Positions 11,264 to 23,682 of a DNA stretch of 50,435 bases are shown here, piece by piece (positions within the stretch are counted from its first letter, which is position 1; every line of letters starts with the position of its first letter). The stretch covers positions 1-50,435 of the forward strand of contig JAGAKI010000037.1 of the NCBI GenBank assembly GCA_017625695.1. Reading direction: 5' to 3'. The notes under the pieces were generated by a model. The model ran no database searches. It saw nothing but the letters and a program-made list of their open reading frames with translations, and had not been told where the DNA came from. The position numbers were made by a program, and so were the translations under genes. The stretch is from Clostridia bacterium (GTDB lineage Bacteria > Bacillota > Clostridia > UMGS1840).

Positions 11264-11450
11264 AATCCGATACCTTTATGACTTGTATTTATGCACCACA
11301 CAAATTTCTTATTGCTTATCGCTGCTCCGTTTCCGTCCTGACGAGGTTCACAAAAGAAAAATCGTAGGCCAAACACAAGTCATAAAAATACCGGATTACC
11401 ATACTTGAGTTTTCTTGCAGTTAAGAAAAAACGCACCATTTTCAAAGCTG
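11264..11450 (-). ncRNA. ffs: signal recognition particle RNA (small bacterial type)
   Basis: On the minus strand a rod closes with 23-nt arms (11375-11397 and 11264-11286) that pair almost completely with a few G-U positions. Its tip holds the SRP domain IV signature TCAGGACGGAAACGGAGCAGC-like core (11321-11341), where protein Ffh binds. The core rod is 134 nt. A consensus promoter at 11458-11486 predicts a start near 11450, so about 53 nt of leader precede the rod, including a 7-bp hairpin (11410-11416 with 423-429). Whether this leader is trimmed or forms a reduced Alu-like part cannot be decided by eye. An SRP RNA gene directly before dnaX is a conserved Firmicute arrangement. Confidence 0.85.
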
Positions 11451-11989: not shown

Positions 11990-12240
11990 ATTATAAAATT
12001 CGTGTACAATTTAGATGACAATATTTTGGCGATATACTCGCTATCGCTCGTGCGATATAATCTCACATAAGTTCGCTTGCGATATTTTGCAAGCAAAGCG
12101 ATATGATATAAATTCCTTTTTTTCACCCCGAAGGGGTATATCGCATTACGAAGTAATATATCGCACCGCAAGGTATATCGCAAATTCCGTCAGGAATTTA
12201 TATCGCTGAGTTTAATCGTTTAGCGATTAAACTCATTATA
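11990..12240. repeat. modular palindromic element, copy A (core word GCGATAT)
   Basis: An intergenic element built in nested order. Left end of 39 nt (11990-12028). Four copies of GCGATAT at 12029-12035, 12052-12058, 12079-12085 and 12098-12104. A linker and central hairpin ACCCCGAAGGGGT (12125-12137). Four copies of the reverse complement ATATCGC at 12138-12144, 12158-12164, 12175-12181 and 12200-12206. Between the right-hand copies stand perfect small hairpins: ATTACGAAGTAAT, ACCGCAAGGT and AAATTCCGTCAGGAATTT; on the left TTTGCAAGCAAA and an AAG-TTCG-CTT. A 12-bp terminal palindrome (12207-12218 with 12224-12235) is followed by TTATA. ATTATA occurs at both ends. Copy B at 22494-22732 has the same plan with a different word. 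It fills the 348-nt gap between the membrane-protein gene and the C_GCAxxG_C_C gene. Confidence 0.9.
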
Positions 12241-12302
12241 CCACAACAAATAAAACAAATCAAGAAAATTTACCGAAAACAAAATTGCAATTCAATTACA
12301 GA

Positions 12303-21181: not shown

Positions 21182-22399
21182 TTAAAAATCAACTTCAGTG
21201 TCGTAGTAACAACATTTGAGAAGTTTTTCCATTTCTTCCACAGAAATCTTGCGGGGGTTGGAACCGGTACAAGCATCTGCCACTGCATTTTTCGCAATTT
21301 CAGGCAGTCTTTCCAGGAATACTTCTTCTGATACAAATCCCTGTTCGCAAGGATAACTGTCAATCCCGTAGTTTTTAATACACTGAGGAATGTTCAGTGC
21401 ATCATTCATACCACGCAGATATTGAATTAAGCTTGCAACTTTTTCATCATCATTTGCACCTTCCAAGCCCATAAAGTCAGCAATCACACCGTAACGTTTC
21501 TTTGCCGTTTCGTCTTTCGCATTGAACGCAATCACTTTAGGCAAATACATCGCATTAGCAGCACCATGAATAATGTGAGCCCCTAAATCTTCAAAAATTG
21601 CACCGGTTTTGTGTGCCATAGAATGCACGATACCTAACAGTGCGTTAGAGAATGCCATCCCTGCAAGGCACTGAGCGTTATGCATAGAAGCACGTTTTGT
21701 CATATCGCCGTTGTAGGAAGCAACCAAATCAGACTGAATCATTTTGATTGCAAAGATTGCAAGCGGATCAGTGAATTCACAATTTGCAGTAGAAACATAT
21801 GCTTCAATTGCGTGTGTCATTGCATCCATACCGGTATGAGCAGTTAATTTCTGGGGCATTGTTTCTGCCAGATCAGGATCAACAATTGCAATATCCGGAG
21901 TAATTTCAAAGTCTGCCAAAGGATATTTGATTCCTTTTTCGTAATCGGTAATAACAGAGAACGCAGTGACTTCTGTTGCTGTACCGGAGGTGGAAGGAAT
22001 TGCACAGAAGCGTGCTTTTTTACGCAGTTCGGGAATACCGAACACCACACACATTTCTTCAAAGGTGATTTCGGGATATTCATATTTAATCCACATTGCT
22101 TTCGCAGCATCAATGGGAGAACCACCGCCGATAGCCACAATCCAGTCAGGCTGGAATTTTGTCATCGCTTCTGCCCCACGCATTACGGTATCTACAGACG
22201 GATCAGGTTCAATTCCTTCAAAAACCTCAACTTCCATACCTGCTTCTTTCAGGTAATTGCAAACTTTATCCAAAAAGCCAAAGCGTTTCATAGAACCGCC
22301 GCCCACGCAAACCATTGCACGGGTACCTTTCAAAGTTTTCAATGCTTCCAAAGCACCTTTTCCGTGATACAAATCACGAGGTAATGTAAATCTTGCCAT
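21182..22399 (-). CDS. iron-containing (group III) alcohol dehydrogenase (405 aa)
   Basis: The NAD(P)-binding segment IVAIGGGSPIDAAKAMW (88-103), the AIPSTSGTATEVTAFSVI block (133-150) and the metal-binding region are complete: Asp-192 and His-196 in GMDAMTHAIEAY, then GIVHSMAHKTGAIFEDLGAHIIHGAANA with three further His. Relatives reduce aldehydes such as butanal or 3-hydroxypropanal; the substrate is not predictable. The ATG at 22399 has AAAGGAGA upstream; a longer frame to 22528 would run into repeat element B and is not conserved in type. Its leader joins the left end of element B, which holds an outward TATAAT at 22494-22499. Confidence 0.92.
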   Translation of the reverse strand: MARFTLPRDLYHGKGALEALKTLKGTRAMVCVGGGSMKRFGFLDKVCNYLKEAGMEVEVFEGIEPDPSVDTVMRGAEAMTKFQPDWIVAIGGGSPIDAAKAMWIKYEYPEITFEEMCVVFGIPELRKKARFCAIPSTSGTATEVTAFSVITDYEKGIKYPLADFEITPDIAIVDPDLAETMPQKLTAHTGMDAMTHAIEAYVSTANCEFTDPLAIFAIKMIQSDLVASYNGDMTKRASMHNAQCLAGMAFSNALLGIVHSMAHKTGAIFEDLGAHIIHGAANAMYLPKVIAFNAKDETAKKRYGVIADFMGLEGANDDEKVASLIQYLRGMNDALNIPQCIKNYGIDSYPCEQGFVSEEVFLERLPEIAKNAVADACTGSNPRKISVEEMEKLLKCCYYDTEVDF

Positions 22400-22493: not shown

Positions 22494-22732
22494 ATTATAG
22501 AATCAGTGAACGATTTAGATGACACCATTTTTAGCTAAATTTTGCAACAAGTTGCAAAGCTAAATTATTCCACTTCGTTCCATAGCTAAATAACTCCTTA
22601 GGAGTAGCTAAATTAAATTCGCTTTTAGCTGACCGAAGGTCAATTTAGCTACGAAGTAATTTAGCGTGCGTAGCACATTTAGCTCGCCGTCAGGCGAATT
22701 TAGCTGAATTCAACATTGTTGAATTCATTATA
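22494..22732. repeat. modular palindromic element, copy B (core word AGCTAAAT)
   Basis: Same plan as the element at 11990-12240. Left end of exactly 39 nt (22494-22532), 31 of 39 positions equal to copy A by my count. AGCTAAAT at 22533-22540, 22558-22565, 22584-22591 and 22606-22613. Central hairpin GACCGAAGGTC (22631-22641). ATTTAGCT-type copies at 22643-22650, 22659-22666 (last base changed), 22677-22684 and 22698-22705, plus a TTTTAGCT at 22623-22630. Hairpins between them are TACGAAGTA, GTGCGTAGCAC and CGCCGTCAGGCG; on the left an 8-bp stem at 22541-22558 and ACTCCTTAGGAGT. Terminal palindrome 22705-22714 with 22718-22727, then TTATA. A 12-bp direct repeat GAATTCATTATA brackets it (22488-22499, 22721-22732). 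It accounts for most of the 452-nt divergent gap before the Mrp/NBP35 gene. Confidence 0.9.
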
Positions 22733-22784
22733 TCATATATCTTTTATTTCTTCAAGAAAAAAATAAATTTCACATCAAAAGGAT

Positions 22785-22851: not shown

Positions 22852-23682
22852 ATGAGCGAAAATTGCACTCACGATTGCAGCAGTTGCCAGGAAAACTGTG
22901 CATCCCGTGACCCCAAAAGTTTTTTAGAAAAACCCCATACACTTTCCAATATCAAGAAAGTTATCGGTGTTGTCAGTGGGAAAGGCGGCGTTGGAAAATC
23001 CTTAGTCACCTCCTTACTGGCAATCACCTCCCGTAAATGTGGTTATGAAACTGCCGTTTTGGATGCAGATATTACCGGTCCCTCCATCCCCAAAGTATTC
23101 GGTTTAACCGAAAAAGCTGCCGGTGATGAAGTGGGAATGTATCCTGTGGTAACAAAAACCGGCATTAAAACCATTTCTATCAATTCCCTGCTCCCCGATG
23201 AAACCGAACCTGTAGTATGGAGAGGTCCTGTCATTGGCGGTGCAGTTAAGCAGTTCTGGACTGATGTGGTGTGGAAGGATGTGGACTTTATGTTCATTGA
23301 TATGCCTCCCGGAACCGGTGACGTTGCACTGACGGTGTTCCAATCTATTCCTGTGGACGGTATCATCATTGTAACTACCCCTCAGGACCTGGTTTCCATG
23401 ATTGTAACCAAAGCAGTAAAAATGGCACAGCTGATGAACATTCCGATTATCGGTTTGGTGGAAAACTACAGTTATTTAGAATGTCCTGATTGTGGCAAAA
23501 AAATCAACGTATTCGGCGAAAGTCACATTGATACCATTGCTGAAAACTTTGGCATTCCCGTTCTGGGAAAATTACCCATCAATCCCGAAATAGCATCCTT
23601 ATGCGACGACGGAAAGTTAGAAGATGCCAACATTGACTTCTTCTCCGATATGAAACCGCTATTGGATGCACTGGCACAATAG
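22852..23682 (+). CDS. Mrp/NBP35-type Fe-S cluster carrier ATPase (276 aa)
   Basis: A deviant Walker A SGKGGVGKS (42-50), a switch DADITGPSIPKVFGL and a Walker B-like FMFIDMPPGTGDVALTV identify the Mrp/NBP35 branch of the SIMIBI NTPases. An N-terminal cysteine cluster (Cys 5, 9, 12, 16: CTHDCSSCQENC) resembles the N-terminal Fe-S site of NBP35, and the C-terminal CPDC pair is the bridging-cluster motif of the family. It should carry a 4Fe-4S cluster to apo-proteins. The start has AAAGGAAG before it. Single gene with own promoter and terminator. Confidence 0.92.
   Translation: MSENCTHDCSSCQENCASRDPKSFLEKPHTLSNIKKVIGVVSGKGGVGKSLVTSLLAITSRKCGYETAVLDADITGPSIPKVFGLTEKAAGDEVGMYPVVTKTGIKTISINSLLPDETEPVVWRGPVIGGAVKQFWTDVVWKDVDFMFIDMPPGTGDVALTVFQSIPVDGIIIVTTPQDLVSMIVTKAVKMAQLMNIPIIGLVENYSYLECPDCGKKINVFGESHIDTIAENFGIPVLGKLPINPEIASLCDDGKLEDANIDFFSDMKPLLDALAQ

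Follow-up and report, generated by a model that had tools for sequence, protein, structure and literature searches.

Inverted arrays of a seven-base word and small hairpins in gut Clostridia: probable mobile, non-coding DNA elements

The window, a 50,435-nt stretch of DNA from a Clostridia bacterium, contains two elements, A and B, that follow one plan and use different seven-base words. The locus raises the question of how eight separated copies of a word can differ together between two such elements, and the first-pass annotation proposed that the eight copies had switched in concert. The features concerned are as follows.

21182..22398, minus strand: iron-containing alcohol dehydrogenase gene, whose upstream region contains B
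about 22494-22735: element B, four GCTAAAT words and then four ATTTAGC words with small hairpins in between
22494..22532, plus strand: left end of B, ATTATAGAATCAGTGAACGATTTAGATGACACCATTTTT
22534-22540, 22559-22565, 22585-22591 and 22607-22613, plus strand: forward words GCTAAAT of B
22541..22558, plus strand: left-arm hairpin of B, slot 1, TTTGCAACAAGTTGCAAA
22566-22584 and 22592-22606, plus strand: left-arm hairpins of B, slots 2 and 3
22614..22630, plus strand: central linker of B, about TAAATTCGCTTTTAGCT
22631..22641, plus strand: central hairpin of B, GAC-C(GAA)G-GTC, the first right-arm hairpin with a GNA loop
22643..22704, minus strand: right arm of B, ATTTAGC words starting at 22643, 22659, 22677 and 22698
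22650-22658, 22666-22676 and 22685-22696: right-arm hairpins of B, TACGAAGTA, GTGCGTAGCAC and CGCCGTCAGGCG, respectively
22706..22726: right-end hairpin of B, GAATTCAACATTGTTGAATTC
22727..22735, minus strand: extended -10 box TGATATAAT, immediately outside B
22853..23682, plus strand: Mrp/NUBPL-type P-loop ATPase gene, flanking B on the other side
about 11990-12243, plus strand: element A, with the plan of B and words of the GCGATAT class (four GCGATAT, central CCCCGAAGGGG, then four ATATCGC)
11990-12027, plus strand: left end of A
12208-12234: right-end hairpin of A
12235-12243, minus strand: TGGTATAAT, outside the right end of A

A and B are the window's only clusters of at least three words per strand, and 200 Markov-1 resamples of the window yield no 3+3 word cluster; element B is real and cannot be a product of chance. 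Both elements fold far better than their own shuffles (B, z -8.7 with DNA parameters; A, z -6.4 with RNA parameters). The mechanical open reading frame of the alcohol dehydrogenase runs to 22528, inside element B, but the gene more likely starts near 22398. The window also contains a small signal recognition particle RNA gene (RF00169, 44.5 bits; 11286-11378, minus strand).

The common plan noted earlier for A and B is borne out by the left end (matching at about 31 of 38 bases, by eye), TAAATTC, CCGAAGG, TACGAAGTA and CCGTCAGG. The copy number is not identical, as B has an additional partial word copy, TTTAGC, at 22624. The earlier comparison of core words, AGCTAAAT against GCGATAT, was out of register; in register, GCTAAAT (B) and GCGATAT (A) differ at two of seven bases, positions 3 and 5. 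Similarly, the description of kept loops on differing stems holds in part for the right arm, where both elements have GNA-type loops (accGCAaggt vs gtgcGTAgcac), and fails for the left arm, where the hairpins of A and B are unrelated.

Word classes among the relatives of A and B

Use of the left end as a query brought up more copies in congeners. Among 291 Clostridia genomes, 35 contain the wider left-end module GAAGAGCCGAATGGTTTAGATG, as do 42 contigs of named MAGs, largely of ruminant-gut origin, and the last word plus terminator is found at well over 100 sites across 35 genomes, several-fold over a reversed control pattern. The exact site pattern was found in no viral contig, and a distant-mode search for element B in plasmids and phages returned none. 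A role of GAAGAGCCGAATGGTTTAGATG as a gene-cassette site, 3' of varied cargo genes, was considered and set aside; it follows a terminator in most contexts, its other strand has a CCA-like end, and we class it here as a left-end module. The sequence GAACGATTTAGATGNCA is common to the left end of B and to variants of GGAAGAGCCGAAYGRTTTAGATGNCA, the left end of the relatives' T-type copies (described below). As a separate observation, this 26-base module GGAAGAGCCGAAYGRTTTAGATGNCA directly follows a terminator and is located at the 3' end of various cargo genes (L023, L029, L037, L068-L071 and many others), such as a DeoR regulator with a YgjV-like protein in two host families, and sequence identity ends exactly at the module. 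Other intergenic module families share the left end and terminator and have no word array (L028:2168-2363, L076, L078, L048, L058, L062); one example carries the AT-rich inverted repeats ATTACTTATTAC...GTAATAAGTAA.

Parsing of the fetched stretches gave 69 elements under a strict rule and 83 under a looser one. Across about 80 related arrays from gut Clostridia, nearly all words are GYKAWAT with small changes, and they fall into the classes GCTAAAT, GCGATAT, RTGAAAT and GTGATAT/GTTATAT. More than one class is present in seven genomes, the window's own among these. The homogeneity of words inside elements claimed earlier is confirmed, as the mean Hamming distance is 0.73 within elements and 1.68 +/- 0.02 when words are shuffled among elements (looser set, 83 elements). 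A more distant genome of the phylum (G633:C154, L355) contains a tRNA-Asp, a terminator and a GTGATAT-class array in this order, indicating that the tRNA-terminator-array arrangement is wider than the near relatives of the window. Two further kinds of array were seen: one family has the word GGATGAAAT, the left end GAAATCCAAACAAGTTTGGATGAAATC and the same terminator end (L064, L111, L140, L141, L153, L228, L245), and a GCGATAT array in L065 (about 420-670) has an additional inverted-repeat segment at its centre (GAACCTCACAAAATATTACG...CTTCGTAATA).

The word classes are inherited together with their hairpins. When the words are masked and each element is compared with those from other bacterial families, its nearest neighbour shares its class in 68 of 72 cases (expected 26.8; median identity 0.87), in a set of metagenome-assembled genomes in which contamination is possible; L005, a short copy, and the chimeras L193 and L203 are among the four misses. 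As these nearest neighbours agree in class, a word class forms a coherent sequence in which words and hairpins go together; A and B thus represent two inherited subfamilies, because hairpins co-segregate with the word in different bacterial families. Consequently, the difference in words between A and B reflects ancestry, that of two old subfamilies, and not the joint rewriting of eight copies.

Neither a simultaneous switch nor strict agreement of the words within each element, both put forward earlier, survives the comparison with relatives. Mixed elements occur: L193 has GCTAAAT, GTGAAAT, GTGAAAT and GCTAAAT followed by five ATTTAGC, L203 mixes GTTATAT, GCTAAAT and ATATCAC, and L027 is also mixed. 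The one-step intermediates GTGATAT, GTTATAT and GCGAAAT are present, GCGAAAT occupying slot 2 in many GCTAAAT elements, and chains of single substitutions connect the words (GCGATAT-GTGATAT-GTGAAAT; GCGATAT-GCGAAAT-GCTAAAT). Mixed and intermediate words are the outcomes that the first-pass annotation had itself given as counting against its proposal. The earlier observation is thus partly confirmed, being valid in outline, while concerted rewriting is not supported.

Landing sites

The arrays occupy two kinds of site. P-type copies, which include A and B, lie just 3' of an extended -10 box (TGNTANAAT) in 10 of 11 cases (by eye), and ATTATA, a possible target duplication, is present on both flanks of most of them, the same letters also occurring within the conserved left end. 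T-type copies lie directly after the CCA end of a tRNA, or after the CCA-ending left end of another copy, and their outermost hairpin is a terminator (A-run/T-run). A tRNA 3' end abuts 46 of 92 arrays, at the exact length of the array's terminator, and the GGAAGAGCC module abuts another 12; several of the remaining 34 adjoin tRNA-like remnants (by eye). The outermost terminators of T-type copies form a small library common to several species (GCGTACTGAATTTTCAGTACGC, GACTATTCTTTCGAATAGTC, GCACCGACAAAGTCGATGC and others), partly tied to word class.

Orthologous sites in congeners are empty or filled differently. The locus of A has no element in four congeners (G001-G004), and the shared flank of G004 runs on uninterrupted around ATTATA. 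The orthologous site of B, located by means of the Mrp/NUBPL-type ATPase gene, has no element in G002, G003 and G004, whereas G001 carries a GCGATAT-class element there in the place and orientation of B. The extended -10 box beside B exists already in the empty sites of G003 and G004. Presence or absence at a precise site between relatives, as used to recognise MITEs, is thus seen for both A (empty in G001-G004) and B (empty in G002-G004), although empty sites by themselves could partly reflect losses; no autonomous relative was found for the elements as MITE-like candidates. The 3' end of one tRNA-Pro is followed by a GCTAAAT-class copy in G000, by a GTGATAT-class copy with a different terminator in G003, and by a terminator and no array in G002. 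Two fillings of one site may be independent insertions or the replacement of one by the other. The apparently orthologous L310 (G000:C61:41166) and L321 (G001:C10:66353), the latter having lost one arm, differ in their promoter-end hairpins (GATTTCATCTTCGATGAAATC vs AGATTTAACTTTCGTTAAATCT) and have a nearly identical arm, so some module exchange within elements also takes place.

Gut-1 RNA and the upkeep of the hairpins

Part of the element is already known as a candidate sRNA, through the Rfam family Gut-1 (RF01706), the model of which corresponds to one arm of the RTGAAAT class. Relatives of this class match far above the curated cut-off of 50 bits (L061, 74.5 bits, E 3e-13; L065, 71.9 bits), and both A (right arm, 38 bits, E 4e-6, full model, 12133-12208, minus strand) and B (a weak full-length match, 22.6 bits, E 0.041, 22638-22706, minus strand) fall below it. 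The alignments of A and B cover model positions 1-77, the GUGAAAU words being replaced by GCGATAT or GCTAAAT, and both arms match Gut-1, on opposite strands. Across an evenly drawn sample of the phylum, Gut-1 is rare (5 of 398 genomes, G633 among them, with three of the five above the cut-off). It was described as a 77-nt sRNA found only in human gut and ranked among the motifs most likely to be expressed as non-coding RNAs (Weinberg et al. 2010, PMC2864571). Similar to one arm of the RTGAAAT-class arrays, Gut-1 has three hairpins between GUGAAAU words. In contrast to Gut-1 as described, the arrays have inverted halves on both strands and several word classes, their hosts are ruminant-gut and related Clostridia, their sites are tRNA ends and -10 boxes, and they have no G-U signature. 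The literature on Gut-1 leads to the original report alone, and a search that included clostridial interspersed palindromes and tRNA-linked repeats did not turn up any account of the whole element, of its word classes or of its landing sites.

The arms of the arrays are inverted copies of one kind of unit. Right-arm loops are GNA/GNNA in 87 cases and TN(N)C in one, whereas left-arm loops are the reverse complement, TN(N)C, in 79 cases and GN(N)A in 13 (Fisher p 7e-36 for the contrast between arms). Because the loop types are reverse-complementary between arms, the arms are inverses of each other. The closing pair of the hairpins is mostly C-G, and C(GNA)G loops form unusually stable DNA mini-hairpins.

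The compensatory change claimed earlier for the whole element is seen in the stems of local hairpins and is absent from word-word pairing. In 13 GCTAAAT-class elements, double-sided changes were found at six stem pairs in 19 cells, a cell count reached in none of 500 shuffles, and at none of 28 word pairs; a G.A mismatch persists at one word pair in 7 of the 13. Strict word pairing as the selected feature was rejected on this lack of compensatory change in word pairs. G-U tolerance was sought on both strands, and no sign of it was found in stems (1855 Watson-Crick pairs vs 7 G.T and 12 A.C mismatches) or in nested word pairs (64 G.T vs 69 A.C), a result that rules out a strong RNA signature and not a weak one. 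From stem covariation with no G-U bias, and from the C(GNA)G loops, we infer that a process at the DNA level is more likely than selection on RNA. One such process, the template-switch correction of quasipalindromes, is known (PMC7202029).

Origin and spread of the arrays

From comparison of the sequences, A and B likely belong to two subfamilies within a single superfamily of inverted-array elements that are mobile and non-coding, with lineage-wise word classes and upkeep of the palindromes at the DNA level. The basic unit consists of a small hairpin, closed C(GNA)G or C(GNNA)G, and a seven-base GYKAWAT word, with about four units one way facing about four the other way. P-type copies such as A and B sit beside an extended -10 box, and T-type copies after a tRNA CCA, bringing a terminator with them. 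Each word class may represent a lineage that expands and spreads whole. Uniform words could have arisen in a founder when duplication of one unit built the arms, and recombination between copies would keep them uniform. The stems would be kept as perfect palindromes by template-switch repair of imperfect ones or by a ssDNA-binding recombinase rather than by RNA function.

The arrays could instead be structured non-coding RNAs, one arm being the Gut-1 sRNA, with stems kept for function, for example in a 5' leader or in an sRNA that the -10 box beside P-type copies would express. The matches of relatives' arms and of A to RF01706, the covarying stems, the start of P-type copies right behind the extended -10 and the 2010 assessment of Gut-1 are all consistent with this explanation. 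It is nevertheless improbable, as G-U pairs are not in excess over A-C in stems or word pairs, Gut-1 is matched by both arms on opposite strands, T-type copies sit behind a terminator, and copies come and go at one locus among congeners. Retention by the host as terminators or insulators, to end tRNA transcripts or shield promoters, would suit the A-run/T-run terminator of T-type copies right behind the tRNA CCA, but is decidedly improbable, since the corresponding tRNA gene of congeners has a plain terminator and no array, P-type copies lack a terminator, and terminator function does not need the array. In-place rewriting of all eight words in a resident element, by template copying or folded-strand conversion, could explain why words are much more alike within elements than between them and why A and B share a plan with different words, and the chimeric L193 and L203 demonstrate that parts can be exchanged. 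This is nonetheless very improbable given that hairpins switch class along with words, consistently across host families, and that orthologous sites are empty or hold another whole class with its own hairpins. No element with fixed hairpins and switched words was seen, the misses of the masked comparison including chimeras and a short copy.

It is also unlikely that the arrays are REPIN-like, mobilised by a Y1 transposase of the RAYT type that has word and hairpin as its recognition site, with new classes reflecting altered specificity. Like the arrays, REP/REPIN/BIME elements with RAYT (TnpA_REP) are dispersed intergenic palindromes of a short tag plus hairpin in inverted pairs, with discrete classes in one genome and mosaics. 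Units of word plus hairpin in inverted pairs are found here (loops GN(N)A right, TN(N)C left), the conserved-loop hairpins fit ssDNA recognition, and Y1_Tnp exists in the genome of the window. Unlike REPINs, the arrays have eight units instead of two, a seven-base word on the GYKAWAT theme, fixed landing sites (tRNA CCA ends, -10 boxes) and no obligate Y1 gene. Three well-covered carriers, G006, G036 and G054, gave no match to the Y1 transposase (PF01797), although draft genomes can miss genes; the transposase is widespread with or without the site (165 of 282 genomes overall), and no Y1 gene was seen adjoining an array.

The search suggested earlier for a gene that always accompanies the family turned up no single partner among the genes examined. 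Y1 transposase and reverse transcriptase (RVT_1, in 9 of 35) are each missing from some carriers, so neither is an obligate partner, no transposase or recombinase was identified as the mover, and transposition itself was not observed. Class C group II introns insert beside intrinsic terminators. The arrays share this terminator-adjacent insertion with them, but the intron feature looked for, a reverse transcriptase, is absent from most array carriers. BOX elements have the layout boxA-boxB(n)-boxC and not an inverted word array. The BOX, RUP and SPRITE repeats of Streptococcus pneumoniae (PMC3049150) are, like the arrays, modular, hairpin-forming, non-coding intergenic repeats of a Firmicute; by their descriptions, they are set apart by different landing sites.

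Within the preferred reading of A and B as mobile elements, a tentative and rather doubtful extension is that they represent a putative new bacterial mobile DNA, in which inverted C(GNA)G mini-hairpin arrays carry the seven-base word as the address code of a candidate ssDNA-acting recombinase that inserts at the -10 region and the tRNA 3' CCA end, both landmarks of transcription. A change in the specificity of this recombinase would create new word classes and, if true, would explain all words of an element changing as one.

In the mobile-element reading, Gut-1, an orphan candidate RNA of 2010, becomes one arm of a mobile DNA element found repeatedly in ruminant-gut Clostridia, with two precise landing sites, after the tRNA CCA with a terminator and at extended -10 boxes. 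These arrays also carry a warning that hairpin covariation alone is no proof of a functional RNA, as the stems here covary with no G-U signal. The presence of several word classes in one genome offers a clean natural set for studying the uniformity of repeats inside one element.
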